64,000 nucleotides of DNA from Clytia hemisphaerica (Eukaryota; Cnidaria; Hydrozoa; Leptothecata; Clytiidae): assembly GCA_902728285.1 (NCBI GenBank), contig CACVBU010001176.1, forward strand, positions 67,858 to 131,857, in the 5' to 3' direction. Positions 8,188 through 63,462 of the stretch are shown here, in pieces. The notes under the pieces are model-generated. The model did not search any database, was not told the DNA's origin, and saw only the letters and a program-made list of their open reading frames with translations. The stretch's first letter is position 1, and every line of letters begins with the position of its first letter. The translations under genes and the position numbers were made by a program.

Positions 8188-8440
8188 ACACCCCTGTCTC
8201 ACAGCCCCAGTGGAACTTTTTTCCTCAATGGGGATAAAAATTCCTATTTAAATCCCAATGGGGATAGAAATTCTATTATTCAAAGGTAAAAAAATCCAGT
8301 GGGGATGGTTTTGGAGTGCAATTTTTAAACATTTAATTTCGAGTGGGGATGAATTATAAGTCAATTTCCCAGTTGGGCTGAAATTCCAGGGTATTTTCCT
8401 ACCGGAGACGAAATTTTTGCAAGATTTTCCAGTGGGTCTG
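8188..8440 (+). mobile_element. CCCCACTGG-ladder element, forward copy, 3' end cut
   Basis: It starts ACACCCCTGTCTCACAG and contains about six spaced AGTGGGGAT/AATGGGGAT motifs in AT-rich spacers. It ends abruptly at CAGTGGGTCTG, where the next copy begins in the opposite direction. Confidence 0.75.
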
Positions 8441-8725
8441 ACACCCCTGTGTCACAGACCCGGTGGATCCCCCACCCCGGTGGAAAAATAAGCCAAAAAA
8501 TCGTCCCCGGTGGAAAAAATATCCTACAATTTCATTCCCACTGCGAAATTGCTCTATGATTTTATCCCCATTGAAAACTGAATGTAAAAAATTGCACTCC
8601 AAAACCATCCCCACTAGAATTCTCGAGCTGGAAACAATAGATTTCCTATCCCCATTGGCATTTTGATAGAAATTTTCATCCCCACTGAGGGAAAAAGTTC
8701 TACCGGGGCACTGAGACAGGGGTGT
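8441..8725 (-). mobile_element. CCCCACTGG-ladder element, full reverse copy
   Basis: Termini are ACACCCCTGTGTCACAG on the left and CTGAGACAGGGGTGT on the right, forming inverted repeats. Seven ladder motifs (CCCCGGTGG, CCCCACTNG, CCCCATTGG types) start at 8475, 8505, 8536, 8566, 8609, 8650 and 8680. The copy is very similar to the one at 51418-51700, so this subfamily was recently active. The open frames here on both strands are by-products of the repeat. Confidence 0.85.
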
Positions 8726-8749
8726 TGTCTGTGACACAGCGGTGTCAAT

Positions 8750-10640
8750 AGTGAAAATACGGGCCTGATAAAATCTGTACGAGGCTTCATTTTGACCTCA
8801 AACTTTTTGTTGCTTGAAACTTATGGAATATTTTGTGCTTATATCAACTAAAATCTCAACTTATTTTCAACGTTTTGTGCTATTAGCTCCACGATTAATA
8901 TATGAATAGGAGATTTTTTATTGAGCACCCTGTATTGTTCAACAAAATCTCATAAACTTTGACGGAAGGTGTCAGTTTTAAGACGGGCAAAACTCCAGAT
9001 AGTTATTTATGTATTTAAAAGGCACTATTTGTATTTGTGTCTGATTTAAAATGACGGAAATTTATCGTCCAAACCTCAATCTATCATCAATTAGACGAAA
9101 ATCCCGGTTTTAAAGTGCATCGCATTGTTGAAATGTCAAGAAACACTGGTGCCCCCGGAAAAAAACTTCATCTAAGGAAAAATCCCTATATCTTTCGCAA
9201 CATCTTTATGATTTGATTCCTTCGGGATTAATTGATTTCTGTTTTCAAATTCACCTTTTTTGAATTGAGACAAATAAGACAAATTCTAAATTTTAACTAT
9301 TTCACAAGTTAGGTCTCATAAATGAAAGTAGTTTTCTCCTTTCCTGCCAGTGACAATTAGGGCCCACGCTCTATGGCCCTCGATCATAGTATGAATTTTG
9401 ATCTTGTTAGGGAGATTGCTTTGTGAGTTTGCCCTTATCTATAGATCAAGTCTGGTATTCTACTTTCTTGCTATATAAAAGATCCTCGCAATTTAGTAAC
9501 CATGGTAGTATATTATCATAGAGACCTGAATCCCATTGATATAATCAAACAATTCCACGTTCGACTTGTATGTAAGCGATCGTTGTTATAAGAACATCAA
9601 AAAATAAAAGAACTATCTTCCTTCCAGAACTAGAATCTTGCAAAATTTTATCAGAATATCATCAAGTGATACGTAAAAAAACGTGCGTTGAAATTGCTAA
9701 GAATATTATAGTGACAACACAAAGGTATTTTTGACGGGCGATAACCAAGTTAGCTTTTATAAAATAATTTTCTAATACTCAAAAATGCTAATTTGGAATG
9801 ACAAGTGCTTTACTATGATTCAAGAGCAAATCCATGAGAGCTCGTGATAGTACAACATGTACTAGTCATTGAGAAAACAGCTTGTCACCAACAAAAACAC
9901 TAAGATAACCATAAGAAAAATATTCACATGGTTTTTGATTTGTGTTGTTGTAATGCTTGAAGGGGGTGCTCTCTATTGCGTTAGGGGTCAAGAAAATATA
10001 ATCATTATTAGAATATTGAATCTACTACTAGTACTGTAAAAAAACAATTTGTAAATTTTTTTAAAGCATGGGTGTTTGAGAATGATGGTAAAAGCTTAGA
10101 CACGGAAAAGCCAGATTTTCTTTTCGCTTAACCTTGTTAATGGTTTTATGTAAGGTTGACTTGAAAAGGAAACTTTCTTTCATTTTTTTATTTTTGACAT
10201 GGTGATGTGATAAAGCATCCTTTGAATTAAGCTTGGTGTTCACTTCACAAATGGGAAGGAATTTGACGATATTTCTTTTTGGCATTTTTATTTGCATCCT
10301 TCATCTTTAGGGGTTAATTTTCTGCGTTAACAAGATGTTTGTTTTTCGCTTTTTATGGTTTGATTGAAGGATAATTGTTCTTTCTCTAGTTTGATAGTGC
10401 CCAAAATCTAAAAAATTAAGGATTTATTAAAAATGTTTATCAATGATCTTATCGAACGCATGGAATGTCATCGAGTATTCTTCAAAGGTTCTGGAAACTT
10501 TACCAATAATTTCGGATCGTTTATTAACAATCGCATGTATATTTTTACTCCTGTGTGTCAAAAAGTCCGTGTTCTTCGACACGTTGCTCGAGTTGCTCAG
10601 GCACGTCTTTGTACGTTATCTTCTCTTTTCTTCGGTAACT
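8750..10640. other. Non-coding, AT-rich stretch
   Basis: No gene or clear element is recognised. Open frames such as 10061-10297 on the minus strand are short, low-complexity and without splice context. Confidence 0.4.
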
Positions 10641-10868
10641 CCGTAAGTTGGTCTAATGTCGACACCCCTCTTCTAATTTCGACATCCTTCTTTACAAATA
10701 GGAATAATAGGAAGGTCGGGATTGCTGATGGAAACTATTTTCCCTTGCTTAGCTTTCAGATTGAAAAAATCTTTTGTCTATAAGTGATCCCGACCTTCTG
10801 ATCATTCCTATCTTTAAAGGAGGGTGTCGAAATTAGAAGAGGGATGTTGACATTAGACCAACTTACGG
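10641..10868. mobile_element. 228-bp fold-back MITE
   Basis: Arms of about 80 bp are inverted copies, starting CCGTAAGTTGGTCTAATGTC and ending with the complement. A loop of about 70 bp separates them. A transcript would form a long hairpin. The arms match at roughly 90 percent by eye. The open frames crossing it (10433-10783, 10443-10646) are not convincing genes. Confidence 0.8.
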
Positions 10869-12532: not shown

Positions 12533-12875
12533 TAAACGCTTTTTTTAATAAAAATACGCTTTATAAGAATGTCCATATGATGAAAATGGCAAAAAAATTG
12601 AGAATATCACCATCATGCAATTTTGCTACTGAAGCTAAGGATGCCATTATTAGGGCATTTTTAATTACAAATTGTCAATTACCCCAAGTAAGGCTCACTC
12701 CTTTCACAAAAATGCCATTTTATGCTTGAGATGCATGTACTAAATGTTAAATCTAGTCTGAATTAGGATTCTAACCTAAGAATGCTGTAACAATATTTTA
12801 GGATGATTTTCCCAAAAAAGTTAAGAATATCCATGATGAAATGGATTTTACACCATTCTTATAAAAAAGCGTGTA
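12533..12875. mobile_element. TACACGC-type MITE with TAAGAAT ladder
   Basis: Inverted ends are TAAACGCTTTTTT on the left and AAAAAAGCGTGTA on the right. The interior repeats TAAGAAT and AAGAATRTC motifs many times in one direction. TA at both ends suggests Tc1/mariner-type insertion. It is close kin to 13406-13761 and 41533-41806. Confidence 0.8.
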
Positions 12876-13240
12876 ATAACCACAAGAAAAAGTGGACAAC
12901 TTGAAACTTTTTTTGTTTTTGATGCAATAGTTATGTAGTTATTTTTTTGTCATTATGAACCTCCTGGTACTTAAAGTCCAGTGAATGTTTTAGGGTGTGT
13001 TTCTATGGAACCCCCGAAGAAGGATGAGAAGTTATTGATAAAATTTTTTTTTGACGAATAAGATTACTAGAATTAGATCACGTGATGCGAAATAAAACCT
13101 TTCATTAAACCTTTCCAGTCGACCCACTTGCCCACATCCATTTAGACAGTCCCTTGTTAAAAGATCGACATATTTTTAAATACTACAACACAAATTTTAA
13201 GGGCAATGCTGAATCAACAGTTTGGAATATTTGGTCTTAA

Positions 13241-14471
13241 CCCTTTGCGTACCGCTGTCGGCAAATGCCGACAAGAGCATTTTCGATTTCTTTGCCGGTG
13301 TCGTCATTTGCTGACAAGAGAGATCTCGACCTATTTGCCGGAGGTTTTTTTAAGTTTATTGAAAGTTCGATTTTGAACTAGATTTTATTAAATAGCATAG
13401 ATGAATACACGCTTTTTTTTTATAAGAATACACTTTATAAGAATGTCCATGATGAAAATGGCCAAAAAATTAAGAATATGCTAAGAATATCACCATCATA
13501 GAATTTTGCTACTCAAGCTAAGAATGCCATTTTTAGAGCATTTTCAATTATAAATTGTCAATTACCCCCAAGTAAGGCTCACCTCTTTCACAAAAATGCA
13601 ATCTTATGCTTGAGACTATGTATTAAATGTTAAATCTAGTCTGAATTAGGATCCTAACCTAAGAATGCTGTAAGAATATTTTAGGATGATTTTCCCAAAA
13701 AAGTTAAGAATATCCATGATTAAATGGATTTACACCATTCTTATAAAAAAAAAAGCGTGTAATTAAAATATATTTCAAAGATGTTTTTCATAATTATAAA
13801 TTTTTTAACTCAAAGTATATTCTTATGATATTTCTGATATCTTTCAGAAAATAAAGCTAAATGTGATGGCAAATAGGTCAAACATTCATTTTTTTTTTCA
13901 GTGGCAAATAGAAAATACGAACGGCAGTAAAAAATTGGACCCTCTGATTATTATTTTGTATCACTGACAGTCTAATGTTTAAACAAAAACCCTTTTACGG
14001 GTGCAAGCTTGGGGTTAATTTTGAGTGTAATTTTAAATTATTCAATAAAAATGTTTGCAAATTCACGTTTCATTAAAATTAAAGAAGCTCGACTTTTGGG
14101 TCTTGTTTAAACCCTGAAAATGCGAAAATTGGACCAAATCCCTCTTATACTAGGGGTATCTAGGGGGTTTTCATAAAACTTGAATGTTGTTTTTGTATTC
14201 TACATGAAAAATTGGACAAAAGTGGAAAGTTTCATCGAAATTTGATAAACTTGATTTTTGGGTCATTTTTTGCCCCAAAAGCCCGGAATTGGGCCCAAAA
14301 CCCCCAATTTTACCCCCTATAAGACCCAAATAAACAAAAAAACAATATTGCCATTCAGTTCTACACCATTTAATTGTGTTATATTCGTAGTTTCATTAGA
14401 ATTGGACGACATCGACTTTTTTTGCATTTTTGCCCTGGGGACACTCATCGGGGACGCAAAGTCTTAAAGGG
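13241..14471. mobile_element. piggyBac-type non-autonomous element (interrupted by a MITE)
   Basis: TTAA target copies flank it at 13237-13240 and 14472-14475. Ends are CCCTTTGCGTACC and, inverted, CCCTTTAAGAC followed by CTTTGCGTCCCC. Near the left end are inverted GTCGGCAAATGCCGAC motifs. TTAA duplication and CCCTTT ends are piggyBac traits. No transposase frame is present. A MITE sits inside it at 13406-13761. A truncated relative lies at 33946-34150. Confidence 0.75.
13406..13761. mobile_element. TACACGC-type MITE inserted in the piggyBac-type element
   Basis: Ends are TACACGCTTTTTTTT and AAAAAAGCGTGTA. TA is at each border. The interior is a TAAGAAT ladder close to the copy at 12533-12875, so two members lie within 1 kb. 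Confidence 0.85.
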
Positions 14472-15080: not shown

Positions 15081-15354
15081 CACATCCATGTCTCAAAGCC
15101 CACAGTGGGATGAAATTCCTATCATCGAAATCCCAAGGAGGTTAGAAATTCTATTGTTCCTAGATCCTAGGTTAAAGAAATCCACTGGGATTGTGTTTTT
15201 GACTTGGATTCCATTGGATTTGGATTTTCATGAGAAAGAAAGTCAATTTTTCAGTGGGTCTGAAATTGTAGGGTATTTTTCCTACCGTGCACGAAATATT
15301 GGCCAAATTTTCTAGTGGGGCGGGGTTCCACCGGAGCTGTGACACAGGACTGTA
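15081..15354 (+). mobile_element. CCCCACTGG-ladder element, old forward copy
   Basis: Degenerate CACAGTGGGAT, CCACTGGGAT and TCAGTGGGTC motifs lie in the same order as in the intact copies. It ends GTGACACAGGACTGTA, a worn GTGACACAGGGGTGTA terminus with TA. Open frames on both strands here are artefacts of the repeat. Confidence 0.7.
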
Positions 15355-15356
15355 AT

Positions 15357-16508: not shown

Positions 16509-17137
16509 GAGTGACTGTAGCATGAAAGTAGAGAATCCAGCTACGGTGCGCAAGATTGTGGGTTCGATCCCCAGCCGGGTCATACCCCGGGGGGAGGGGT
16601 ACTTAGGCAAAATGGGTGCCGGGTATGTGCGAGCCATAAGGGTACCTTTTCTCATTCCTCAAAAGTCTCTCAAAGGGGTAATTCAAAAGTTAGTCTCTGA
16701 AAGGGTCCCAAAATCACAAAATTCAAAAATTTCTCTCTCAAAGGGTCACGATTTCCAAGAATTTTGACCAAAATTTGGTGAAAATCAAACCAAAATTTGG
16801 AAAAAATGGACCAAAATTTTGGAAAAAGTCTCTCAAAGGGTCCCAAAATCACCAAAATTTTGTCTCTCAAAGGGTCGATTTTCGATTTTCGGCTCGGACA
16901 TACCCGTCACCTCGCAAACCTAGTACCCCCCCCCCCCGGGGGTCATACCAATGATTCCCAAAAATAATACTTAATGCCTATCTGCTTGATGCCCAGCAAT
17001 TAAAGAGACGGATCAAAGGTAAGTGGGGGAAATCCAGGGAAAGGAGTGGCGCCCCTCCCCTACCTACCTTCGGGTAGACAGCTATAGAAAAGGGAGCCTT
17101 TGGGTCGCCCTCGACTGTGGTCGCAAACTTTCCTACT
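16509..17137 (+). repeat. tRNA-derived SINE, split by a MITE
   Basis: The head is tRNA-like (CGGCTACGGT-type core, then the B box GGGTTCGATCCCC at about 16558). The body ends in a GTCGCCCTCGACTGTGGTCGC segment shared with the copy at 33365-33624. A perfect 11-bp direct repeat, TATAAACCCTC, flanks it at 16498-16508 and 17138-17148, which shows retroposition. Without the inserted MITE (16587-16941) it is about 275 bp. The A box is damaged here. Confidence 0.85.
16587..16941. mobile_element. CCGGGG-terminus MITE inserted in the SINE (hAT-like)
   Basis: Inverted ends are CCGGGGGGAGGGGTACTTAGG and, on the right, the complement of CCGGGGG with poly-C then TACTAGG. The SINE motif GTCATACC is duplicated at 16579-16586 and 16942-16949. 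Because the ends are palindromic the duplication could be 6 to 10 bp; 8 would fit hAT. The interior repeats GTCTCTCAAAGGGTC five times in one direction at about 16665, 16693, 16733, 16828 and 16862. Confidence 0.8.
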
Positions 17138-19260: not shown

Positions 19261-22200
19261 CATTGATGACGCTGATAGATACGTTGACGGGGATATAAGA
19301 TATAAATGATTAACGATTCCTTGAATTTAAGGGCACTGGCCTCTTTACGTCGCAGAATCCTTTATCGGCCCTGGCTCTTGAGGGTGTAATACGTCATTGA
19401 CATCGCATAACTGACATATCTCAAAAAAGGCTTGCTTAATGCGCTCATATCAAATCTACGCCGTAGATCAATAAACCTAGATAATACGCAATTCTTTACC
19501 GTGGGATTACACTATAGCATGGGATTATGGGTATTCTAATATTTGCAAAAGTGACATCACGTTCAAATCTCCAAATCTGTTTTCTAGCCTGCCCCCTTTT
19601 CTTTTTTAATCTGCTACAGGAAAATTCACATTTTGCCAGAATGCTTCGTTACCTTCATCCATCACTGACCTGACTATGACTTTCTGATACTTTAAAATTT
19701 TCATCTTTTATTTACTTTCAACATTTCAATTTTACTTTTTCTCAGCCTTTAATTCCACTTTAAACCCTATTTCATATCCGAAACAAGATTTCTCACTTAT
19801 TATTAATCACTACTGAAAATGTAACTCTTTGAGTTAGCTGTTTCTTGGTGGGAGAAAGATGGAACCCTGTCTGAGTGAAAACTTGTAAGATGTTTTTTAG
19901 CTTTTGGGATGAATCAATAATGTGGTTATACGGTCTCCTGTTTTTTTAATGGTGTAGATTTCAAATTAAACGAATTGGCCAACAGGAACAGAATTTTTGC
20001 TACCAGGGAAGATTATTTAATCAGACCGTTTTAGTGGATGAAGTTGAGTCTTAAACACTTGGAAGTAGTGTCTTTGGACAAGTGTTACCCAATGGTAGCA
20101 TTACTCGATATTGGTGAAAATATTCCAAAGGAAAATTTCATTGAATTACTAATTGTCCCACATTGAGTAGTGCTACCATAAGGGTACCAACCGTCTAAAA
20201 TATCATCTCTTAGATGGCCTGCTAAAGCTTGGTCATCTAAAGGTCAGTTGGTACTAGAAAAGAGGAATGAGTATCGAGGTGTAAATACGTAACAAAATTG
20301 TGAACAAGTCTTCTTCATCTAAGATCTCAAATAGTTTTCATGGTTACCTTTAATTCTGACTGGAGGCATACCCGAGGCATATACTAAATAGAAAGTCAAT
20401 TCCTCTTCAATGTCCACATATGACGGTCATTTTATATCACACGTTAAATTTAGGGGTGAGAAGGATATTCATCTAAATAAGATCTTAATAACCATAGTTA
20501 CCATAATTTTATTTTCATTGAACATGCTGAATAAACTGTCTTCACAGTTTGGTTTTTGAATCTTAGCGTAAAACTTAAGGTTTGGAAGCATCGAGCCAGC
20601 ATTATTCTCACTAAGGATTTCAAAACTACATGTACATGCCCGAAAGGTATCAAGAGTATTACCCAAAATGTCAATATTTAAATTTTAGTACGATGATCTA
20701 CTTTACGTGACATATTTGTCATTAACATATGGGTCAATTTTGTATTTTTTCCTCGCATAGCATTACAATACTGTACAAACATGCAAACAAATAAACAAGT
20801 ACGCTGGCTCTCACTCTACCATCCGTAATTTTGTTTACTTTTGGATAGAGTATACCACTTGCTGGATTAGTAAACGTGTGTCCTTTTGCGTCATCAGAAA
20901 ATAAGCCTGTCAGGCTTGGGATTTGGCTTTCCTGCTGGAAATAGTGTATCATTACTAGCTGACATACCTTTTGGTAAATTCCTAGAAACACTGTGGCCAC
21001 TACTTTATCATTCTTTGTGAAATAGATAGATAGAGTCAGGTAGCTCCGTAACCTAGGACTTTTAGCAATACAGTCTTTTAATTGTTTTCAGGGGGTCCCC
21101 GACACGATCACCTTTATGAACTGAACAGAACGTTAGAAGAAGTGAGGGGTTCGAACCGTTTCTAGCACTGAAGACAAAACACTCAGCAATTGCTTCAAAA
21201 AAGGAAACAAGGAAACAAGCAAACAAGAAAAATTCATGTGAACTTTGCAAAATCTGAATATAAAATTTGGCTGAAATTCTCAGACAAGTAAATAATAAAT
21301 GTTCTGAATATAAAATTTGGCTGAAATTCTCAGAAACATAATTTCCTTATATTATAAAATAATTTGCATTGGCACATACAGATTTGAATTTTTCGTATAT
21401 CATTTCCTTCTTCAAAACATACATTAAAATCCTATAATTACCCTGTTAATGACAAGTCATTAAGAAGTTACCAGATAATCCTGTTCACCAATTTATTTAC
21501 ACCAATTATTAATATAGCCAGTACCCAACTCTCAATCCTATCATAAGAAAGGTTAAGAGTCAATGGATAGTTCAGTGCACGCTTGACTGTGACATACTGG
21601 TTACCACATACCGTACATTCCTTTTACCACATTCCTCAGCTTCATTCATTATTGCGTATGAAAACTGAAAACTACTAAAACCTGCAACATGTCATTAACA
21701 GGAGTTGGTATGTGTCATCGTTAATGATTCTCTATCCAATAATAATCTCGATTGTTGATAAGAAAGAGAATTGTTTTCTGTTAGAGTATTTTTAGGCTCT
21801 TCAATCGTGTTAAGGGTACGTTTATGTTGAGTTTTGTACGTAATTTTCGCTTGTTGTTATTTGTTGGTATCTTTTTACATGGCTGTTTTGGATAGTATCA
21901 TAGAAGGTTCGTTGATGTCAGAATGTCATGGAAGAAATAAAACACATCAGGTATTCATTCGTACTTCTAACTACAGAATTATGTGTTTGCATATGCGATT
22001 CAATGTTGTGTACACGTCCTTTTATAAGAGCAGTCAAAATTTTTAAAAAGTTCAGGTTCTTAACCTAACGAGTATTAAGCCTAAAAATGTTCTTAAAATA
22101 TTCTTATTTGCATTTGATTTGTCGCAGTATTATGATTGTGCTTTTTCTTAAGAGATTGGTTTTAATTTAAAGCCTTAAAATGGTATTTAACTTGTTCTTA

Positions 22201-22300
22201 ATATTTTGGCCAACAAAGCCTTATGTATCCTTACTGTATATAGTTTGTTCTAAAAAAATTTGTATCTGTTCAGTGCTGCTAAATTTTCTTGTCTAACTTA
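19261..22300. other. Non-coding stretch with small repeats
   Basis: No gene is seen. A short fold-back has arms ATGGTAGCATTACTCGATA (20092-20113) and the complement at 20158-20178. A 31-bp direct duplication beginning CTGAATATAAAATTTGG is at 21253-21283 and 21303-21333. A worn relative of the TAAGAAC-type MITE lies at about 22077-22232. Confidence 0.45.
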
Positions 22301-22740: not shown

Positions 22741-23192
22741 AGGGACTGCTATTAAAGTTTTCAACCCGGCAGAGTCATCGACATTCATTGAGTAGATTGA
22801 GGTTGAAATTAGCACTGTTGTTTTTCCTCCAAACGAAAGGCGGCAGTTCCAAATCAGATCATTTGAAAAGCGTCCCAGGATTTTTATCGATAAGAAAGTA
22901 CGTGAGAAAGGAGATCGTCCTGACAGAAGCGAAAGTTAAGTCAATACATTCAAGTTTAAAATTGAACTACGACTCACAATATTTCAGATATCAAATTAGC
23001 AATCGAAGTAGTGATTACATACGAAATTCATAACATTATCTAATTTCTGACACCTGTCAAGAAATATGACAAGAAAATATATCCTTCAAATAAATATTGC
23101 ATCTCACAAGTCACGTAAGATTTATGATATGAATGAACCAGTGCAGTATATTTGATATTATAACTGCTCAAGACTGAGAACAGTTATGGTGG

Positions 23193-23459
23193 ACACATCC
23201 CCTTCTCACAGACCCGGTAGAATTTTTTCGGCCACAGTGGAGATAGAAATAACAGACTGAATCTCATATTCTTTTATAGGTGGGGATTTAAATTCCTTTG
23301 TTTTCAAGTCAGAACACCATATTTTGCAGTGAAGATTGGTTTATTTGATTATTTTCAGTGAGAACAAAAATTGGAGTATAATTTTCCACCGGGGACGATA
23401 TTTTGGCAAATTTTTCCAGTGGGAAAGGGTTCCAGTGGGTCTGTGAGAAGGGGATGTGT
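23193..23459 (+). mobile_element. CCCCACTGG-ladder element, divergent copy
   Basis: Inverted ends are ACACATCCCCTTCTCACAGA and TCTGTGAGAAGGGGATGTGT. The ends have changed together relative to other copies (CCCCTT for CCCCTG), so this is a separate subfamily. The interior keeps AGTGGAGAT, GGTGGGGAT and CCAGTGGGT motifs. Confidence 0.75.
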
Positions 23460-24118
23460 GAACAATTACATCCGCGATAAAACGTTTTCCATTACAGATA
23501 GATTTCCGTCTGAGCGAAGTATATAAAGAGAAACTTTTCCGTCTCAAAATTCTGCATGATTCACAAAGCTTTCAAGAATATATGCTAATTTGCTGTGAAA
23601 ACCATTTTCCCGTCTAAGACAAAAAACCTTGTTTTTGACCACTGTTAGAATACTTTGATAGTAGGCGAAAAGTGTGGGTCCATTGGCGATAACAAGTAAG
23701 ATTCTTATCATGTTCTGACATGTTCTCTTTTTTTTATACCTCTACGTAAATGACACGTTTAACCCCCGAAATAGTCTAGAAACATAAATTAGATCAGTTT
23801 AGCTTTGTATGTTTCGAAAGGTTTGATAATGATAAAAATACTAATTGAATTAATATTGCATGTACAGGCTAATCAAAAACGATCAATGATTACTTTCCTG
23901 TGCAAATTCTTAGCTAAGTTATGGTGGAAAGCACGTCATATTATCTGCTAATTGGTCTCCTCCAACTAAGACGGGACATATTGTCGGGGGTAATACCTAC
24001 TCAATTATCTAATGTTCCGATAATAGACCATTAGATAAGCCTAAACAATTCGTTTAAAGTAAACAAAGGTGATGTTATCATACGAAAAAATATGTAAAAT
24101 AGGCGGTAAATGGGCGGT

Positions 24119-24599: not shown

Positions 24600-24912
24600 T
24601 AAGCTTTTTGAGCTTTTCTTGGAATTACTGAACTAATAACTAAAAAGTTTTGACAGTAGAACGATAAAAGATATATAAGTATCTCCATAATAAATGCTCA
24701 TTAGCCTACACCCATTTTCTACGTCACATTCCACTCTTTTGTTTTAATGCAATTTGCAAGTGATATATAATCATTCAATACGTCAATGGCGTAATTGCAG
24801 TTCTGGCTACGCATCACTTAAGACCCGGAAAATCCATAGTTTTTATTGGTTGACGTACGTATGATCACGCTAAAGTTCTTTTTTGGTGATGACGAAGTGT
24901 CTTTTTTTAGTA

Positions 24913-25067
24913 CAGTTGATTCTTTCTAAGTCGATCTGTCGATCTTCAAGGGACCAAAAGTTTTCTTTGAATTAGAGAAAGATTCGAATTAAAGAGAGCA
25001 TTTGACGAGGCTGAGAATTAATTCGAATTATAGAAAGATTCGAATTCGAATAAGCGAGAGCTCACTG
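24913..25067. mobile_element. pogo/Tigger-like MITE with TTCGAATT ladder
   Basis: Ends are CAGTTGATTCTTTCTAAGTC and, inverted, CAGTGAGCTCTCGCTTATTC, flanked by TA at 24911-24912 and 25068-25069. The interior repeats TTCGAATTATAGAAAGATTCG-like motifs. Short related pieces (TTCGAATTATAGAG) occur at 37611-37685 and 41112-41150. Confidence 0.75.
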
Positions 25068-25176
25068 TAAGAGTTTTTTCATTTGTTTGAGTGAGCAGAT
25101 TAGTGTATCTTGCCTTTACGGTGTCCTCTGGTACCTCTAAGTAAACGGTAATAAATTTTGAAATTTTCTTAATTAG

Positions 25177-25807: not shown

Positions 25808-25995
25808 GAGGCTCCCCAGCGAACTTTCAAATTCACGCAATTACGCATTCTTCACCAAATTCCAAATTCACGCATTCGTGCAATTTCTTTTCACGCAAAG
25901 ATTTCCAATTCACGTAGTAACGCAGTTTTTAAAATTTTTATTCATTAACGCAAATTTAAAAGCCCATTCACGCATTACGCCAACCGCTGGGGGCC
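25808..25995 (-). mobile_element. GCGTGAT-ladder element, reverse copy
   Basis: Ends are GAGGCTCCCCAGCG and CGCTGGGGGCC. Inside, TTCACGCAATTACGC-type motifs recur about seven times in one direction. It is the same family as 45125-45388 and 61245-61335. Confidence 0.75.
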
Positions 25996-27573: not shown

Positions 27574-27790
27574 TACACGCTTTTTTTATAAAAACATCCA
27601 AAATTTTCTTCGGCTGTTTTTAACTTTTTAAGATTTAAACCTAAAAATGTTCTTAAAATGTTCTTATTTTCACCATTTTTTCGTCTGTTTTCCTAAGAAA
27701 TCAGGTGTCAAAGTCCTCAAAGCCTTAAAATGTTCTTAATCTATTCTTAATATTATGGCCATTGAAGCCTTATGTTCTTATAAAAAGACG
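27574..27790. mobile_element. TACACGC-type MITE, TTCTTAAAATG variant
   Basis: It starts TACACGCTTTTTTTATAA and ends TTCTTATAAAAAGACG. The interior repeats AAATGTTCTTA and CTTAAAATGTTCTTA. A worn sister is at about 22077-22232. Confidence 0.65.
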
Positions 27791-29796: not shown

Positions 29797-30176
29797 GGAT
29801 TCTTAAATACACATTTAGTTGAATGCTTTTGTTTAATTACTCCACTTCCTTTTCTATTGGAATTAGGGAAGAAATAGATTTGGATACTGAAGTTTTTCTC
29901 CATCATTTTGACGTAATTAGCTTAAAATGATTCAAATACAAAGCTATTGTATTGTGCTCTTTAAGTATCATTGTTTTCATTTTCAATACGATTCATTGTT
30001 TTCTTTTTGACAACTTCAACTTGCAATAAATGTATAATTAGGTAGGGTCATTAGCATTGTACTACATATCAGGTGGCGGCTACAGTTTAGCATGGATCTG
30101 ATAAAAAGGTTATAGCGGTGTTTTATTTATAATTCGTTTTTTATGGAGAGTTAGTAATTTTACTGGTGCAGAAATC

Positions 30177-45200: not shown

Positions 45201-48200
45201 TTGGCGTGATGACGTGATCAAGATTTTGGCGTGATGCGTGATAGGGCAAAATTTGAGGCGTGATGCATGATTTGGGCTATTTTTCGCTATTTTTTGCGTG
45301 ATGACAAATTTTAGCGATTTTCGTGATGCGTGATGGAGAAAATTTTTTTGCGTGATGGCGTGATCAGGGGTGCCGCTGGGGGGCCTCAGTTATTGTATCT
45401 TTTGATGTCAAAATAATAAGTAAGAGTATAAACAACTTGAGTTGCAGCAAAGCTTAACAGTGTGATACGAGTTTTTCTTCTGATTCCAATGAAATTTCAG
45501 AGTATTCAATTTTAATTAGTATCAAAAAGAAGAATTTTGCCGGATCCAAAGGACCAATCTAAAAAATATGGATTCAAATTTTTCATAGTCCTCTAATATG
45601 AATTTGAAATTCATCAACTGTGCTAATGATTCACGCAAGCCAGACAAAAGCGATTTCCAGAGAGAGCTACTCGAAAGTCCTTTGACTGATTACTTTCAGA
45701 TCCTAATCGTATTTTAGTGTTAAAGTGAAAATCTCTACTTGAAAAGATAAACCATTTGCGAAAGGAAAAAGAAATGTAAACTCGATGTTATTTTTAAAAA
45801 GTTATAACTAAATGATAATGATGTCTGGCAGTTATTCACGGACGTCTGATAATTTCGTCAGTTTGATAAATCGTGACAAGCTTACAGGAAAAACGTACTC
45901 AATAGTTTTTTAATTCGAAAAGATTCTTCAACATGTAGATTAATTTTTTGAAAAGACTTCAATTCATTAGGCTGTTTGAATTCTCTTTGTGTTTGCAAAC
46001 AAATTGATAACAGCCTATCAAAAATCTATATTGCCAGAGAAACTTTAAAGATGAAACTTACATGTTCCATCCATCTTTTCTACATATGTTACTAATAGGT
46101 TTATTTTTAAACTGACATTTGGAAAATTTTGACTAATGGCTTAGCTAATTATCTAAACTGTTTGCAATACGAAGTTAATTAAAATAACCTGAAAATCATC
46201 CACCTAGCAACTCACGGATCTAAACGCTCAGCATGGAAATACATGCGACCTAACAAGCTGCAAAAGTATTCTTGTGCATTAAAAAAGTAACACATAAAGG
46301 GCCCTTATGATATCAAAAATCTTAATCCTGTTTTGTAAATATGTCTTACAGACCTTTTAGGGTGCGGTTTTAACTTTCTAATCTCCAACCCTTGTATTCT
46401 CATTGACTTTTTACACAGAACAGAGGGAAAAATGTAACAAATCTTATTGTCCTTAATGACGTCAACTTTCTTACTTTGACAATAGAGTGCTGAGCAAATA
46501 TGATGAGGTTATTTTTATAAGGTTACATATAATACGGTTGTCAGAGCGGTCACATTACAGACATAAAATATGCTCTAACTATCGAAGAGAAAAGGAGAGG
46601 TCTTTCAGTATTGTTTTCATAATCAATAGCTTGATTTAATGCAAGCTGTAAAAGAGCAGAGATCGATATTTTTTATGAGTTTGATGTTAAAAAGGGAGCT
46701 TATTAAACGAGGTTTTGTTCTCGCGTAGAAGGTATACGACAAAATTCATAACATAACAGGTTGCGTCTAAGTATTGGATTAACATCAACCTGTAATATAT
46801 AATTGAATCGCATGTTGCATACAACAAAAATAACATTATACTGATTTCGGATAATAATGTTTACATCTTACAGTATTACCGGACAATCAACATATCTATC
46901 GGACATTGCAGTGCACCTGTTTTTACAAACATCATTAAGTGTGTCAGAGATCCAAGACAAAATGACAAATGGTACTGACTCTGGTGGTGAGCTATTAGAG
47001 GAATATCAATCACCGTCAATACATGGTGGATGCACGTCGTTATCAAGGAGTTGTTCAGCTTATGAGGATCACGACTCCGGATTCAGCTACAGCACAGCAA
47101 GCTCGTTAAATGATTGTGGTAAGTGAGAATTTAGTTTTTGGTATTTTTTTTTCTCTGCAAAATATGAGGCTACATTGTGAACCCTTAAATAATAAGCAGG
47201 ACACACCCTTTAATATAGAGACATTTTAATTGTTTTTGGTGTTTTTTGTTGTTGTTGTTGTTGCTTTTTGCAGTCAAAGTTATTCTGTTTTTGAGAATGA
47301 GTCAATAGGGTTTTACCAGGTGCAGTTTGAGAATATGGTTTTCTAAACGTGAAGGTGCAGGAAAAAGGTTTTTATCTTGGGTTTTTTCTTAAGGACACAA
47401 CTTTCAATTTCAATTTATATGCGTGCAGTTTGTGAAACCTATTTTTAGTTTTTGATCCATCACTTTTTATTGATCAATCGTCTTACACTGAGGTGTAGTA
47501 GTTTACCAAAGAAAATGAATATTTGAAAGTTAATCGGATGAGTTTGTCTGCTTTATGAAGAATATCAGAGATTTGTTTGTTGTTCAGGACTTTCGTGAGA
47601 AATCTAGATAGATTATACTAGACAAAGTTTAACAGACAGAGTACTAGTAGATTAATGTTAAAAACACGGACCCGACACGAACCTGGTCAAGTCACTGTCA
47701 GGGAGAATGGTCTTGTTGAAAGATTAGATATAGCTTAGCTTTATCTTAATCAGGATAACCGTTTATTTAAAGGTTAAAATAAAGATGTGAAACTTTTGTT
47801 AATGTCAGGTTGGAAAGATTATAGCGTGTATTAAGCAGATTGAAAAGTTAAGCATTTCCGACATATGGATTAAGTAAAAGTTCTTGAACTTATCGTTTAA
47901 AGTAATCCCAGAAGTCATCCTGTCTCTGTGAAAATTGCCAAGAATTTTAAACATGGTTGAATTCTAGACCACGTAGCTATGAGTACACGTTTTTTCTTTT
48001 ATTAGAACCTAGTTTATAAGAACATATAGGCTGAAATTCGTCGAAAAATTAAGAACATCTTAAGAACATGCCCAGCCTCAGTTTGGAAAAATGACAAGAA
48101 ACTAAAATTTTTTCCTCTTTTTAAGCAGTTTTAACCGAATTTAGGGGTGGATCTTCAAAATTCGAGAGTCAAATATTGTCCAAATTTTGCCAAATTTAAG

Positions 48201-51200
48201 TGCTCTTTATTTTGTATCATATTGTCTATTTAGAGTAGTCTGAAAAATTAAGAACGCATTTAAGAACATTTTTAGGCTGAAAATTGCTAAAAAAAATAAG
48301 CACATCCTCAATAGGCTCAGCCAAATTTTAGGTGTTCTAATACAAAAAAAAACGTGTAGAGTTTAAAGAAAGTTGTAATACAGATTTCATAATTTCTCGA
48401 TACAAATTATTCAAATTCTCCGTCATATACAAAAATGGGATGCAAAATTAAATTATGTTGTAATTGTATTAGAAGGCGCAGTCTAATAAGGCTTTCAATA
48501 CATCATGCACTGCTGTGATTCATATTAAAATGAAAAGAAAAGGCATGATGATAATCCATAAAGTATGTAATGAAAATAGTATCTGATGGTGTATTGGGGG
48601 TTCCATTTGCATAAGATGTGGTTATGAAATCCTGTAATTTGTAATATTAATTTGGGTAAAAGGTTACATAAAAATTGTTCCTTTGTCATACTGTATAAAA
48701 TATCGCGTTTCACACAGCATGACCTCAAAAAATACGTCTTTCGATGATAAAATGTAATTTCACAAGGCCTTTGTAACCTGGACAGTAGACAAGCTGCGCC
48801 AACCTACCTATTTATCATAAGTCTTCCTCTTCGAGGTCCTTAACATTGTTAATAATAAAGTACGGGAATTCGATCTTATATTTCGCCTTGTGAAATAATT
48901 TTCGAAAAATTTAAAAGTTAAAACCACATTTATTACATAATGTGCCTAATGATCACAAGTATTGCAAGTCCAAAGTTCATTTATTATCAGCATGCTATTT
49001 TTCCACAGTGGAAAATACATCAAATTCCATCTTATTGATTGGGTGTAATGTTAATCCCCTTTGATAGTGATTGTGATTAATGCATGGAGATAATCAATTA
49101 TAGTGAGACAGGAGGCATGAAAAATCATTTAAATTCATTCCACTATTCAAGCATTTTCTATTATCAATAAACTCCTAAGTAGATCCATTAGGATTCAAAA
49201 TCTTAAAATAAAGTTACAGGGGTTTGTTAAACCACCCACTTTATAAAAGCACAAACAAATACAAACAGACGCTGTGAATCGAATTGAATCGATGTAGTCG
49301 AATTAATCGAACCGAATCAAATTTAGTCGTCTCAGTCAATGTGTATTTTGTTCGATTTTTGTTCGATGATCATTAATAATCAAACCAATCAAATCAAAAA
49401 TCGTGATAATAAATTTGATCGAGTTTGAAGTCCTACGACAATCGGAATTACGTTTGACTTGGTCGATTCGGCTTCGTTCGATTACCATTGACTAGACAGA
49501 ATATTTTAAAAGATCAAGGTGTGAACAGGAGCAAAACGATTTACATCAAATGTATTATGTACTTGCTTCAAATGTTTATGAGGAACGCAAGACTAGAATT
49601 CAAGTTTCTTTAGAGGTATCGTGCATCCTACACATAAAATTGAGTCTATTTTAGCGTTCTATAATAAGATTCTTGTATACACAAAATCACCGTTCCCAAC
49701 TTTAAACAATGACCTTGAACTTTAGAGTGTAACCTTTTCCTGACCACAATACAAGGCACAAAGGGTGACAAATACGTCAAAAAGGGGAAAAGAGGAAGTG
49801 CCCGGCCTTAGTTTCATGGCAATAGATCGCGTGATTTTTCACGCGATTGTCTTTTGTAAAATATACTGGATAAACATCAAGGTAAAATTAAACTGCAAAC
49901 AATGTCGACCTCCCATTAAAAAAAAACCCACAAGTTTTTAGAGTTTAAGTTTCTTTGTATTCAAACTTTTTGTAAGCACTCAAACTCAATCAAAAGTACC
50001 GTTTGCCATAGATAGATAGCAAGTTATTTAGATACAATTGGATGTTTCTTATTTTCAAGAAGCAAAGTGAAAGAAGGAACAAAGAATTTGTGAGGATAGG
50101 AATCAAAAACCTGTACTATATATTGGGATGAGTAGAGAAAAACTTTTTCTGAGAGTTCTTACAAAAAAATTGAATCAGCATGATTTTAGAGCATGAGAAA
50201 TAATCACGTGGATTTCTGTAACAAAGATGGTAGATTGGTTGTTTCAAAACAATAGAATTCTATTGACGTCAGCTAATGACTTGCCTAACGACGGCATATT
50301 TTTTCTTGCATTCCAATTTCAAAGACAAACAGAAAAAAACATGAGAGGTTCGATTGTCTATGTCGTTATAGTTAATTGTCTCCAGGGAGATATGCTATTG
50401 TTTGAATTACTTAGTTTAAAATAAATATTTTTTCTTTGTGCTATTGGTAATAGCTTTTCCTCAGTGCCCTTGCACTAGGCTATGAAAATAATGGTATAAG
50501 CTTTACATGGTATAGATTTTTGATTTTGAGAGTTCAAGGATAGTTCTCAAGAATAGCTTACTCCATGTGCAATTGACTATCTTTGGTATTGGTGAAGCAT
50601 TGGTGTAGAACTTGTTTACTTTATATTGTGGAAGATCGTAAATATTGAACCAAACCAAGAAGCAAACTAGCTCAAACCAAAAAAGTAATTATACTCTTTT
50701 CTAAATTTTTCTTTTTAAGCTATTTCGGGACCATATTGGACATACCAATATGGAGAAATAGAATGTCCGTAAATGAAGGCTTTATTGATTGAATTAAATT
50801 TGTCTTTTCGCCCTTCTTTTTTGGTAAAAATATAAATATAATATAATATCTTGAATACTCATGGTGACCTGGAAGAAACTTTCTTGAGCTCAATAGAGTG
50901 TACATAGTGATGATTGATGGAAAGTTTATAAAAGGATATAATAATGTTTCGGCTGACGTTTTGAAGTACAGGACATCAATTAGGAAGTGAACTAAATATA
51001 ACAGTAAGAGAGAGAAGAGAGTGAGATATCCATGGTAATGAGAAACAGTGTGAAACTCTGTAAAAACTTGTTGATAGTTTGTTTACTTTACTTTTGCTGT
51101 CCTGAGAAATTTGGTGACATACTCCTGATTTTTTAGTGACCTGTCATTTTCGGTTTTTTTGGTGGTGTAATCACTCTATCTTTCAGTCACCTAGGTTATT

Positions 51201-54200
51201 ATCTCCAAAGAACTTTACACACGTGAAGGCATTTTTTCTTTGCTCCTGATTCAAAGTGTTTACCTAATCAAAAGTAAATTATATTTGGGAGCTTCGTGAT
51301 GAAAAAACCTCCTTACTCGCCTCCTTACTTAAGCGATCGATCATATACCCGATTTGAACTCATTTCAGGATATTTGCGTTATTGTCTCATACGAGTAGGT
51401 CATTTGAACACATTTTACACCCCTGTGTCACAGACCCGGTGGACCCCTCGCCCCGGTGGAAAAAAAGGCCAAAAAATCGTCCCCGGTGGAAAAAATGCCC
51501 TACATTTTCAACCCCACTGGGAAATTGCCCTATGATTCTATCCCCATTGAAAATTGAATGGAAAAAATTGGACTCCAAAACCATCCCCACTGGAATTTTT
51601 GAGCTGGAAACAATAGATTTTCTATCCCCATTGGGATTTCGATAGAAATTTTCATCCCCACTGAGGGAAAAGGTTCCACCGGGGCACTGAGACAGGGGTG
51701 TAATTTTAGATATTTGACCTAAACAAGATTTTTTGGGAGGTATCAAAAGTTACTTCCTGAATTCCTGACATCATCAAAGGCTTTCTTTATAATATGCCCA
51801 CATACAGGATTTCAAATCTGTCAACACAAAATACACTTTAAACAAAAAAAGTTGTGAAATTTATGCCAATGTTAACCTGTGCCTTTTCAAAACATTTAAA
51901 ACATGGTATCGAATGCAAATAAAAATGTTCTAACTTCTGACGTCAGAGTATCTCTGGTATGACTCGTGATTTGAGGATGCATTCATTTTTTGTTTTGTTG
52001 ATTTTGTTCTATGGTATCCATATATCTTTATGTTTACGAGTTTTCTATCATTTTGGATAACGACAAGGTCAAAACAGGAGTTCGAATGAGGTTTTTCAAA
52101 AATAATATATGTCTCTGATTTCAAGTCGGTAATATAAAAGTAAGTTAGACCTTTCTTTTTCTTCATTTAAGTTGCTGATTTAAGTGAAAAGTTAACTTAA
52201 AGATATTGGTTTAAACCATGGAGACTGGTGGCTTCGAGCAATGGTTTATCGTATTTCTTTCATCACAGTAAACCCTTTACAACAATTTAGACAAGAAAGA
52301 GTTGCAAGCAGTGACAAACAACGAGAAAAAAATAGACATAAGACTCAGAGGAGCAGAGTGGACAGACAATATTAGAAACGAGAAAGCAAAGTAGATACAC
52401 GGTGCGAGTCGAAAGAATAAGTGTAAGCGTATATTCGCGTTGGATTTGCCGATTAAAACGATTAAATAATGGGAAAACATGCTTATACGATCATAGCGCG
52501 TGAAAAAAACAAGGTTTGAAGGAAAAAATGATATTAGTGTTATTGTAATGATTCTTAATCATAAACGATAATCTAAAGTTTTGACAAGCCGTTGAATTCT
52601 GTTTATTTAGATCATAGTGAATCGCTTTAGAGGCAGATTTACTTAATGAAAATATGAGAAAAAAAGGAGCGACTATGGGACAGACTATCATTTTGACTGT
52701 GTCTTTATCGCTGTCCCCTTTTTGTGTTTGCGCGTGAGGTGCTTTGAGGTGCTTTTGTTTATTGCTTGCGCTACATGGTGTTTTTATGACCAAAATTTGT
52801 ATTTTTTTATGAATGGGAAATTTTGCTTTTGACAAAGAGTGATTTGTTTGTAAGAAGAAAATTTCACATGATCAAAAAATTGTTTTTGAGACATTGAATT
52901 TGAATTTGTTGCTGTGGTGATTTTGTTTTCTTGATCATGATAGATATGAGAAATTGTTGGAAAGAAGAACTTGACTTATTTGTTGTACGCAAAAATTCCA
53001 TTGAAAAGGGTATCTACTTAAACTTACTTTTCGTGTTATCCAGGCTTGATATTTAATACTAATTATGGTCCACGCAATGAAATTGAAAGTTGGGAACCAA
53101 TGAATATAGAGTCTAAGGAAGCGCGACCAAACATTTTTACTTTGCAAAAAAATGGGCGTAGGCCCTGCTAATAATGGTTTTCTTGAAAAGAAAAAGAACA
53201 CTAAAGTGACTTTATTCAGCATTTAAATTATAACTCTCTCAAAGACAGTTTAAAAACACATAGTTACAGCAATCTGTAGTGTCTTTGCCAGGAAAGCTAC
53301 ATTGTAATAAAAAAAATTTGTCGAGACAGGGTGTGTCCAAGCAGATGTTCAGTAGGATACGCCTCAGTCCACCTTTAAAGGAAATACAATTGACCTTCTC
53401 TGAAATAGGCGAAAGAGGAAAAATGAAGTTCGATTAGCAATATGCAAACAATATTTAAGCTAGCATCCAGGATGGCTTTTAAAGGGCTGTAAAATGATCA
53501 AATGACATCATTAGGAAGTCGTAAAATCGCATCCTGGAATATGAAATGTTATTTGCTAAACAGAAGGCGGTAATTATTTAAAAAATGTCAATATAGGAGA
53601 ACTGTTCATATCAGTCAAGTATGCTTTTCTACTCAACAGTATTAAGTTCTTTTTTATATCAAATTTCATGAATTATTTTCTTTGTTTTTTACAGTGGCAC
53701 CTCACACTTCATGTGATTCAACAATCGATGGATGCGATATAATGAACCCTAAAGATGTCGAGCAGAATCTATCATGCTACGCTGACAGTACTGAACACGA
53801 GACGACGTTACAATCGTTAAATCCAATCTCTCAAGAGGTGTCGGGTAATGATACAGACCCAGATAACGTTTCATCGAATTATTATTTCACGTCGGACGAT
53901 GAAGGTTATTGCTGTAGTAACTATGATGCCGACGACGAGGACATTTACCGACAATCACCGAGAGACGAGGAAAACAATAACCGAGTACCGAGTCTTGCCG
54001 AGGATGATGACGACGACTCTTTATTTTGTTTTCGCATTAAATCCGACCATACCATTTACACAATAAATGATGCTATGGAGATTTTAAAACAACGACCAAA
54101 ATTAACCGATCGTTTGTATTGTCAAGAAGATAGCGACGACTGTTTCCGAGAATCAGAGTACGACGTCATCGATACCGACGATTCTGATAATGCTGATATT

Positions 54201-59740: not shown

Positions 59741-60301
59741 GTCATTCTTCTAATTTAATCCGTCCTCTAATTAGTACGAATTAATTATTTTGGCAAAATG
59801 AAATAATTTATCTAACTCTAATTATTAGTACGAGTCCATGATCACGAATTTCTGATTTTCCTCTAATTTAGTACGATAAAGGTCAAATTTTCCTCTAATT
59901 ATAGTACGAATAGTAAAAATAAACGAATTTTTTTTGTTTCAAAGACACTTCAAAGACAAGGAGGTATGGAGATACCAGCTGATTTCATTTTCAAATCGGT
60001 CAATGCAAAACTTTACAGTCAAATGAGAGAGAAAGTTCTCAAGGAACTGGAAACTTTTGAAGAAAAGAGAAAAGTTGGTAAAAATAAGAGTTTGAAAAAG
60101 AAAGAAAAAATAAATAAAAAGTACCAAAAAGTGTGTTTTTAATTTTTCAACCCCTAATTTAATACGATTTGATATCTCTTTTACTCTAATTATTAGTACG
60201 ACAATCAACGTCAATTTCCAAGGTATTTTATTTCCTCTTATTATTAGTACGACCCCTTCAAAATAATTATTTTTTCCGGAGGATTAAATTAGAAGAATGA
60301 C
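59741..60301. mobile_element. Inverted-repeat element with TCTAATTATTAGTACGA ladder and internal open frame
   Basis: Perfect 21-bp inverted ends begin GTCATTCTTCTAATTTAAT (59741 onward) and close at 60301. Seven TCTAATTATTAGTACGA-type motifs, all in one direction, start at 59766, 59817, 59862 and 59894 on the left and at 60153, 60185 and 60236 on the right. The centre holds a non-repetitive frame (59942-60142). No certain target duplication is seen. Confidence 0.85.
59942..60142 (+). CDS. Lys-rich open frame carried inside an inverted-repeat element
   Basis: The frame stays open from upstream and codes for 66 residues to TAA. It includes GGMEIPADFIFKSVNAKLYS and MREKVLKELETFEEKRK, then a Lys-rich tail. 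The segment TTTTTTTGTTTCAAAG just before it could be a splice acceptor. Composition is protein-like and helical. It sits between the left and right ladders, as a captured host-gene exon would. No family is recognised, and it has no clear start codon except Met within GGMEIP. The minus-strand frame 59939-60214 is its shadow. Confidence 0.4.
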   Translation, partial: KTLQRQGGMEIPADFIFKSVNAKLYSQMREKVLKELETFEEKRKVGKNKSLKKKEKINKKYQKVCF

Positions 60302-61244: not shown

Positions 61245-61335
61245 TTTCACGTTCACGTTAAAAATCTCGATTCACGTATTCACGTCAGAAAAAAGGCTCA
61301 TTCACGTGTCACGCCAGCCCCTGGGGGGAGCCCCT
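61245..61335 (-). mobile_element. GCGTGAT-ladder element, short copy
   Basis: Five TTCACGT/TCACGCC words lead into CCAGCCCCTGGGGGGAGCCCC, the G/C-rich terminus of the family. The other end is lost. Confidence 0.6.
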
Positions 61336-61805: not shown

Positions 61806-61898
61806 TTGGGAAAAGTGACCCTTAAGAGCCGCACGTACGTACGTTAGGTAGCTTATATCTCGAATGCCCCAGCCCCGACGCAAAATTTTTTTCCGTAA

Positions 61899-62105
61899 GC
61901 GACCCAAGCCCTCATTTAGCGGTCCAAGCCCTCTTTTTAGAATTCTCTGATTGCGCCAGCGGCCCAAGCCCTACTTTAGCGGTCGTTGCCCTCCTAAAAG
62001 TATTCTGCGGCTCAAAATAGCGGTCCAAGCCCTCAAACAACGGTCCAAGCCCTCGGAAACTTAGTCACTTTTTTATTCTGGGTGATAATCAGCGGTCCAA
62101 GACCT
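61899..62105. repeat. GCGGTCCAAGCCCT ladder
   Basis: GCGGTCCAAGCCCT-type motifs start at about 61899, 61919, 61959, 61979, 62007, 62020, 62040 and 62092, all in one direction. AAAAGTGACCCTTAAG at 61811 and CTTAGTCACTTTTT at 62060 may be its worn inverted ends. Confidence 0.7.
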
Positions 62106-62351
62106 GAATATTTCTGACAACGAATTTCCTAAACCAACTTGGCCGGAAAACAAGAAATGTGATTTTTTTGTGCGCGAAATTATTATGACTTTAACGGCCC
62201 AAGGCCTTAAAGCATTATATTTAGACTTATCATTTCATGCTACTTTTCACGGCGAAAGTGAGAGGTGTGATTTTAGACAAAATGCATATAAAGCGAGTGA
62301 GTGAGTAAAAATTACGAGTGTTTGGAGATTTTAACTTGGAGTTTTTGTTGA

Positions 62352-63293
62352 ATGAGTAATATCTGTAATGTTGATTTCTTTCTTTCTTCTCAAGATTTAA
62401 AATGTCTTTTTAAATTCAAAATGGACGAACATGCACGTGGAAGGGTAGAATTAATTTTAGATTACTTCAAGGAAGCTAAAATCCTTATTCAGGATGGGAA
62501 GGAAGAGGATGGACAAAGTCCGAGCATAGTGTTCGAATGTTGATGTCAAAAATCAAGAGGATATTGACAACTTTTTGGATTTTTATATGAATGAGACGAA
62601 TGAAATCATGAAAATAAAAGTAAAAAAAAACACCAGGTCAGAAGAGCATTTATGCAATCAAATCAATTTACCGATGCCATTTTGATACAAGATATGAGAA
62701 TACCAGAGACGCTGAATCTATTTTGAGGAAGGACCCATCAAAACGATTCAAGAATACAATGTGTCCTTTTCAAATTTCATTCAAAGTAATCAAAATGCCC
62801 CTCTCATTCGAATGCCTCTTGTCAACTCACTATGACTTACGAGCATAACCACCCAGTGAATTCCTTAGAAGCACTAAGCTTTAAAAGAATTTCGGAGGAA
62901 ATTCTGATCGAAGTTCAGAACCTTTTTGAAAAGGGTAATACATCATCCCAAGCATATCAGGAATTTCTCAGAACTCTCAAGCTACATTGTGAAGACCAAA
63001 TCAAATTTCATTTGAGTAAAGCGGACAGATCAAAATGCCCACGACGAAGAGACTTTGATTCACTTTATATAAAGTTTTGCAAAGAAAAATTTGGTGGAAA
63101 GAATGGAGCTGATATGTTTGAGAAGCTTGAAGAAAGAATTAATCAGTTTGAAGAAAACATGGACGGGATAAAAGTCGCATACCAGCTTTACAACGAGGAC
63201 GAAAATTCGGCATTGATTTTGGCTATTTTGACACCTTTGATGATAAGAGTCCACAGAATGGTAAAGACAACTCTATTACATTACATTTTTTGA
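62352..63293 (+). pseudogene. Mutator-like (FAR1/MULE) transposase, N-terminal part, frameshifted
   Basis: The coding signal moves through frames. 62352-62543 reads HARGRVELILDYFKEAK and QDGKEEDGQSPS. About 62542-62640 reads EDIDNFLDFYMNETNEIMKI. 62651-62831 reads IYRCHFDTRYENTRD and KRFKNTMCPFQISFKV. 62832-63293 reads TYEHNHPVNSLEALSFKRIS and onward. The CxH, then CPF, then HNHP series is the zinc-binding FAR1/WRKY-GCM1-like domain of MULE transposases; the NSLEALSF and LFEKGNTSSQAYQEF region normally follows. At least three frame changes inactivate it. The catalytic DDE part is not found in the window; the frame stops after a possible donor (GAATGGTAAAG). Family call fairly sure; it could have supplied mobility to Mutator-type elements such as 6346-7287, but that is inference. 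Confidence 0.75.
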
Positions 63294-63311
63294 ATTTTAA
63301 GACATGGATTT

Positions 63312-63462
63312 CCGATTGGGGATGAAATGAAAGTTAATTTCCCAGTGGGGCTTAAATTACAGGGTATTTCCGGGTATTTTCCGGGTATTTTCCCAGTGGG
63401 GACCAAATTTTTGCCAAATTTTCCAGTGGGGCTGGGGTCCTAGTGGGTCTGTGAAACAGAGG
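63312..63462 (+). mobile_element. CCCCACTGG-ladder element, 3' part
   Basis: CGATTGGGGATG, CCCAGTGGGGC, CCCAGTGGGGACC, CCAGTGGGGC and GTGGGTCTGTGAAACAGAGG follow in the usual order, with TA at 63463-63464. A short GGGTATTTTCC word is duplicated inside. Confidence 0.75.

Follow-up and report, generated by a model that had tools for sequence, protein, structure and literature searches.

In a 64,000-nucleotide stretch of the genome of the hydrozoan Clytia hemisphaerica (GenBank assembly GCA_902728285.1, contig CACVBU010001176.1, positions 67,858 to 131,857 of the forward strand; hereafter the window), families of short repeats carry ladders, in which one short word recurs as a series of rungs separated by spacers. 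In one of these families, here called B, the word has switched in concert at almost every rung, whereas the spacers have kept ordinary place-by-place descent. Judging from the sequence, we consider that the ladders are probably arrays of predicted binding sites, each for the DNA-binding domain of the transposase of its own family or for a helper protein encoded by the autonomous element.

The evidence from family B lies in the comparison of homologous elements that carry TAAGAAT, TAAGGAAC or TAAGAAC as their word. Self-comparison recovered seven copies in the window (table 1), and when B1, B2, and B3 are aligned with MAFFT, their rungs stand in matching places. With rung places taken from copy B1c only and left without hand correction, B2 reads TAAGGAA at 8 of the 9 rungs (one is shifted by one base), and B3 has C for T at the seventh base of the word at 8 of 9, including the inverted terminal rung, compared with 5 of 49 spacer T's; this inverted last rung differs between elements in the same manner as the other rungs. 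Between B2 and B3, word identity is 0.75 within an element, 0.56 at the same rung of the two elements and 0.56 at other rungs, when the corresponding values for non-rung positions are 0.29 within, 0.60 at the same place and 0.29 elsewhere. This word pattern is matched by 0 of 2695 random position sets; the pair B1b–B2 agrees with it (0 of 2756), and B1b–B3 is weaker (within minus same 0.06, against a null maximum of 0.04 in 5000), with the proviso that random position sets overlap one another, so that these figures give a strong contrast and not an exact p-value. Such a concerted switch of words, combined with ordinary descent of the spacers, points to a reader of the word that would act in trans on all rungs.

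The relatives of family F6 provide a second case, in word counts, of an all-or-none word difference: CGTGAT and CGTGAA number 14 and 0 in F6, 0 and 5 in F6b, and 0 and 5 in F6c. The partial relative F6c, at 61250, is linked to F6 by self-comparison, and F6b, which the blind scan described below brought up at 25810, by its termini only, by eye; both are additional to the copies listed in the original prediction.

That prediction had named nine ladder families (A, B, and F3 to F9 in table 1), of which eight stand: their words are above chance, mostly in one direction and specific to the family. The words themselves were found at 8441 (CCCCACTGG, family A), at 13406, 29539, and 47984 (TAAGAAT, TAAGGAAC, and TAAGAACAT, family B), at 16587 (TCTCTCAAAGGG, F3), 24913 (TTCGAATTATAGA, F4), 35845 (CCTTGGAATTCC, F5), 45125 (GCGTGAT, F6), 59741 (TCTAATTATTAGTACGA, F8), and 61899 (GCGGTCCAAGCCCT, F9). 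The ladder of AATCGA at 49276 (F7) was rejected, its best result in the shuffle test being 34 of 400, at chance level. The window has a GC content of about 34%, three ORFs (open reading frames) of at least 200 aa only and, by self-comparison, many dispersed repeats. Exon resemblances seen by eye suggested eukaryotic and probably animal DNA, without backing from Pfam. A blind scan of it in 424 overlapping segments of 450 bp, which scored the best 9-mer on the same strand with at most one mismatch and spacers of at least 3 nt, gave counts of at least 7 in 5 segments (the three elements B2, F6, and F9) versus 0 of 1500 dinucleotide shuffles, and counts of at least 6 in 13 segments versus 5 of 1500; among the segments with a count of 6, some consist of AT-rich sequence or of a tandem array with a 124-bp unit. 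In an element-level test, the best word was re-picked in each of 400 shuffles under three word settings, a pass being at most 4 of 400 in at least one setting. Eighteen of the 21 copies submitted to it (5 of 9 A, all 7 B, and a single entry for each of F3, F4, F5, F6, F6b, F6c, F7, F8, and F9) passed, the failures being A at 15099, B1 at 12533, and F7 at 49265–49500. None of 12 other repeats used as controls did so (ten elements that are palindromic or bear terminal inverted repeats [TIRs], one repeat resembling a short interspersed nuclear element [SINE], and one two-copy repeat; one control is nested within another, and control P1 had 120 shuffles), and of 158 tiles outside elements 3 passed at a similar cut (at most 2 of 200 in at least one setting). 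Element boundaries were drawn with the ladder in view, and the blind scan is independent of them. For F3, the best-scoring word was CCAAAAT/CAAAAATTT and not the TCTCTCAAAGGG of the original prediction, which occurs five times at up to one mismatch to its 13-mer core.

The named word lies on one strand only in F3, F5, F6, F6b, F6c, and F9, and family B has a single exact inverted word, located in the right TIR. F4, with its palindromic core, and F7 carry words on both strands, and the case for a single direction is weaker for A. There the one inversion of the strict word is that of the right TIR in the copy at 51415, where spacings run 17, 30, 31, 30, 43, 41, 30 (identically in the copy at 8441), but, because the word is quasi-palindromic (CCANTGG), the opposite strand also scores, by 9 to 7 at 51415 and 7 to 7 at 36511 with up to two mismatches. 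In F8, the two-part word (TCTAATT..AGTACGA, with 0–3 nt between the halves as read by eye) has one weak match on the other strand (5 mismatches).

The families had been described as unrelated to one another, and a sensitive self-comparison of the window agrees, with no similarity between ladder families at E 1e-4; on this ground, a single ancestor for all ladders was rejected. The ladder is not a general design of the miniature inverted-repeat transposable elements (MITEs) here: eight palindromic elements, self-inverse in self-comparison (6905, 10641, 19051, 24373, 26797, 43186, 43536, and 61587), have no ladder, so that two architectures coexist here, ladder elements and palindromic ones without a ladder. 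Nor are the ladders mainly foldback structures. A and B fold better than their shuffles (z -4.65 and -4.43) and F9 does not (z +1.57), when the element at 43186, the only palindromic one folded, is a long hairpin (z -15.41), and a hairpin design for ladders was rejected.

Our reading of the ladders as binding arrays of a transposase or helper draws on experimental precedents in which a transposase, or a protein of its element, binds repeated sites. The hAT element Herves bears a short 8-bp motif at both ends, its transposase binds subterminal CGATTCAT sites, also as direct repeats, and four direct repeats suffice (PMC3143072). Readable target duplications in our families differ from the 8 bp expected of hAT elements, and no hAT transposase was seen. 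In the CACTA elements Spm/En and soybean Tgm1/Tgmt, TNPA-like proteins bind a reiterated subterminal word, which varies from one soybean subfamily to another and is asymmetric between the two ends, and its coevolution with the binding protein has been raised (PMC2613891); here, however, the termini are CACCC in A and CACG in B, and words run mostly in one direction, those of Tgmt being direct and inverted. In Galileo and Foldback, each element end contains more than one transposase site, additional THAP sites in the TIR repeats being proposed to supply specificity (PMC3688188), but these sit in long inverted TIRs, whereas our arrays cross the element mostly one-way. The foldback element Tetris has internal repeats (TIR-220) in its end that were linked to extra transposase sites (PMC4079207), but these are tandem units of 220 bp, unlike the short words and unrelated spacers seen here. 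Coral CMITEs are likewise invertebrate MITEs with conserved internal sequence, but of about 100 bp and with TTAA duplications, a ladder not being mentioned in the portion of that report considered (PMC2872659). The ladder would be one more of a known kind of binding-site array, with what appears to be unusually clean evidence for coevolution of site and protein.

Under this model, the ladder-bearing MITEs would be non-autonomous deletion derivatives that keep the word arrays along with the TIRs that are cut. One trans-acting protein would read all rungs, its specificity would have shifted between subfamilies, and selection would have brought each rung individually into line with that specificity. 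In a large genome, a single short site could not give an element the specificity and avidity that many such sites could, and the design would recur through a need common to several transposase superfamilies rather than by common ancestry.

Several observations weigh against such binding arrays. A and B1 each include one decayed copy without a significant ladder in the element-level test, and the words may have served in part as anchors for the MAFFT alignment of B. The arrays of F6, F8 (at both ends), and F9 run one-way although the cut ends are inverted, when inverted arrays would be expected if synapsis were simple and symmetric. A and B are the only families with the word clearly within the TIR; in F4 and F8 it is partly so, and in F3, F5, and F6 it lies, by eye, just inside the TIR. 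Helical phasing as a common rule was rejected: the pooled p of 0.013 (39 spacings of seven families, F8 left out) owes its low value to A (p 0.022) and F9 (0 of 5000 jitters), values elsewhere being 0.09 for F5, 0.11 for B, 0.21 for F6, 0.54 for F4, and 0.74 for F3, and phasing in F9 may reflect a 60-bp unit. Moreover, no transposase was matched in Pfam among the 187 stop-to-stop ORFs scanned of 230 listed, the other 43 mostly overlapping others.

The alternative closest to the original proposal of a replication process expanding short units is neutral tandem duplication, in which ladders would be slippage minisatellites that arose inside MITEs and later decayed, the word being the best-kept part. 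We compared the flanks of words in 12 arrays as pairwise identity over 12 nt on each side. Flank identities range from 0.17 to 0.58 (null means 0.25–0.30), when word identities are 0.69–1.00, which in part reflects the choice of rungs by their word. On one side or both, flank identity is above the 95% bound of the null in F3 (upstream), F4 (downstream), F5, F6, F8 (upstream, 3 rungs), and F9, so that local duplication may have helped to build these arrays; spacings of 20/40/20/41/20 in F9 look like 60-bp units, and the doublets of F6 resemble 29-bp units. A minisatellite in a bacterial MITE is also in print, and so is the seeding of satellites by Tetris (PMC4079207). In A, B, and F6b, however, flanks are near null: B2 and B3 are within it, B1 downstream is slightly above its bound (0.38 vs. 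0.36), as is A at 51415 upstream (0.34 vs. 0.32), perhaps a sign that the word extends beyond the limits given to it, and A at 36511 and F6b reach their bounds. Neither slippage nor decay can produce what is seen in B, where spacers descend place by place and words do not. Tandem duplication is contradicted for B, for which a single process of replication expanding short units is likewise not favored; it may have contributed in the six families just named, and is unlikely to explain the ladders as a whole. Near-random spacers in A, B, and F6b, together with the concerted word switches, instead favor the binding arrays that the original prediction had offered as its other mechanism.

Whether the reader is encoded by the element is a separate matter. 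Words might bind a host transcription factor or architectural protein that aids or silences the element, a reading for which the sequence evidence is the same as for a transposase, family-specific words being expected also with different factors; it appears rather improbable to us, somewhat more so than tandem duplication, since coordinated word differences would need the host factor to be changed or swapped each time, and a protein encoded by the element would presumably change more readily. Word-limited homogenization, whereby very short conversion or template switching copies rungs without selection, would yield the same concerted pattern, with the inverted last rung differing likewise, but at most rungs its tracts would have to end at the edge of a 7–9-nt word and leave the separate descent of the spacers untouched. 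We know of no process of such precision, and we hold this explanation to be very improbable. Chance words in AT-rich sequence, picked by eye, account well for AATCGA only; the re-picked-word shuffles and the non-element tiles reject them for the other eight families, which makes chance the least credible explanation of all.

B and F6 could be natural records of switches in transposase specificity, a possibility that we put forward tentatively and with considerable doubt. Nearly all nine rungs of B were replaced while rung places and spacers are homologous; simple drift should not yield so much parallel change, which implies either very strong rung-by-rung selection by one reader or active word-limited copying. 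The usual basis for inferring coevolution of transposases and their sites is a small number of sites; here, one element would offer up to nine internal replicates changed together, with the spacers as a built-in neutral control. With the whole genome, specificity changes of unknown transposases could be ordered, and terminus plus word would serve as a search key for autonomous partners. Our literature searches brought up no paper in which the words of a ladder switch in concert, although this does not prove that none exists.

As for the classification of these families, A and B are like MITEs in being short (0.1–0.56 kb, fragments included), multi-copy (at least nine A copies, eight by self-comparison and that at 33720 by eye, and the seven B) and bounded by TIRs, with no ORF of at least 200 aa inside and no transposase Pfam match among the scanned ORFs. 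They share the reiterated subterminal motif of CACTA elements, but the termini are (TA)CACCC in A and (TA)CACG in B. A target duplication of 8 bp is expected for hAT elements and one of about 9 bp for Mutator-like elements (MULEs). We read 9–10 bp in F3, where GGGTCATACC stands on both sides inside the SINE-like repeat, 3 bp (AAT) in F5, and about 6 bp as the best register in A, in which 4 of 7 copies have 6-bp flanks matching at 5 of 6 positions and 3 do not. In B, TA was seen at all four copies examined of the seven and may belong to the TIR. These differing flanking duplications suggest that several transposon superfamilies lie behind the ladder families. F4, with TTCGAATTA-type words at CAGT... 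ends read by eye, has a putatively pogo/Tigger-like (TcMar) look.

Table 1. Ladder families and the SINE-like repeat, in positions of the window.
Feature	Position	Strand	Description
A, complete copy	51415..51703	+	TIR (TA)CACCCCTGTGTCACAG; 8 same-direction CCCC(A/G)(C/T/G)TGG-type words and one inverted in right TIR
A, nested in another A copy	8439..8726	+	GTCTG on both sides
A, split by the 8439-8726 copy	8188..8747	-	
A	36511..36783	-	
A, decayed ladder	15085..15356	-	Not significant alone
A	23183..23469	-	
A, short derivative	33720..33895	-	Spotted by eye, then aligned
A, fragment	37738..37832	-	
A, fragment	63293..63471	-	
B1	13402..13764	+	TIR TACACGCTTTTTTT; 8 exact TAAGAAT on +, one inverted at right TIR
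B1, second clean copy	41527..41812	+	8 TAAGAAT and 1 inverted
B1, decayed	12533..12878	+	Not significant alone
B2	29537..29802	+	Homologous to B1; TAAGGAA at 8/9 rungs
B3	47981..48361	+	Homologous; TAAGAAC type (C at 7th base) at 8/9 rungs
B4	27574..27790	-	Word TAAGAACAT
B4, second copy	22011..22260	-	
F3	16587..16931	+	Inserted in SINE-like repeat, with GGGTCATACC (9-10 bp) at either side; TIRs rich in C/G; TCTCTCAAAGGG x 5
F4	24905..25072	+	ATTCGAATTA(T/A)AGA words, palindromic core, both strands; presumed pogo/Tigger-like look
F5	35845..36118	+	45-bp TIRs (91%); CCCCCTTGGAATTCC-type words x 5; AAT at either side
F6	45122..45388	+	C/G-rich termini; CGTGAT words, partly doublets, 14 on +, 0 on -
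F6b	25810..25992	-	Termini like F6 (by eye); CGTGAA x 5, CGTGAT x 0
F6c, partial F6 relative	61250..61335	-	CGTGAA x 5, CGTGAT x 0
F7 (AATCGA)	49265..49500	.	3 words per strand; not above chance
F8	59741..60301	+	Perfect 21-bp TIRs; words 4 left, 3 right of ORF piece 59960-60139, one direction
F9	61860..62215	+	8 GCGGTCCAAGCCCT-type words; spacings 20,40,20,41,20,52,102
SINE-like repeat, three copies	12189-12347, 16509-17138, 33362-33620		tRNA-like boxes by eye

Regarding coding remnants, the ladder of F9, whose right end was not found, lies 5' of a broken ORF region (62400–63290) that we take to resemble the N-terminal part of animal MULE-type transposases, without database support; its ORF at 62790–63290 has no transposase match in Pfam, and no relatives of the two ORF pieces compared, this one included, were confirmed in viral contigs. 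Among the 187 ORFs scanned, Pfam gave ten weak matches, all to other families (E 0.0046–0.047), and a separate scan of three ORFs gave no transposase remnant either; Rfam gave no match at gathering scores, and the ORF at 713–1618 none among PDB sequences. ARAGORN called no tRNA in the copies of the SINE-like repeat, two of which lack the F3 insert and align across its site. Three matches (2–3 mismatches) to the F3 word GTCTCTCAAAGGG fall within 22310–22460 and 57480–57680, near stretches that by eye resemble the F3 terminus.

Elsewhere in the window, the ends of a TIR element at 6346–7287 hold GGTCGCTGGTCG-type repeats, GTAAAAATG (9 bp) flanks it on either side, and the palindromic element 6905–7158 is nested inside it. 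At 4035–4431, a 124-bp unit is repeated 3.2 times in tandem, with 94% matches, and this array includes TATAAGAATC. Finally, an AT-rich stretch at 55800–56060 contains AAAAATCTT-like words, four of them at 51–52-bp steps, and may be another weak ladder.

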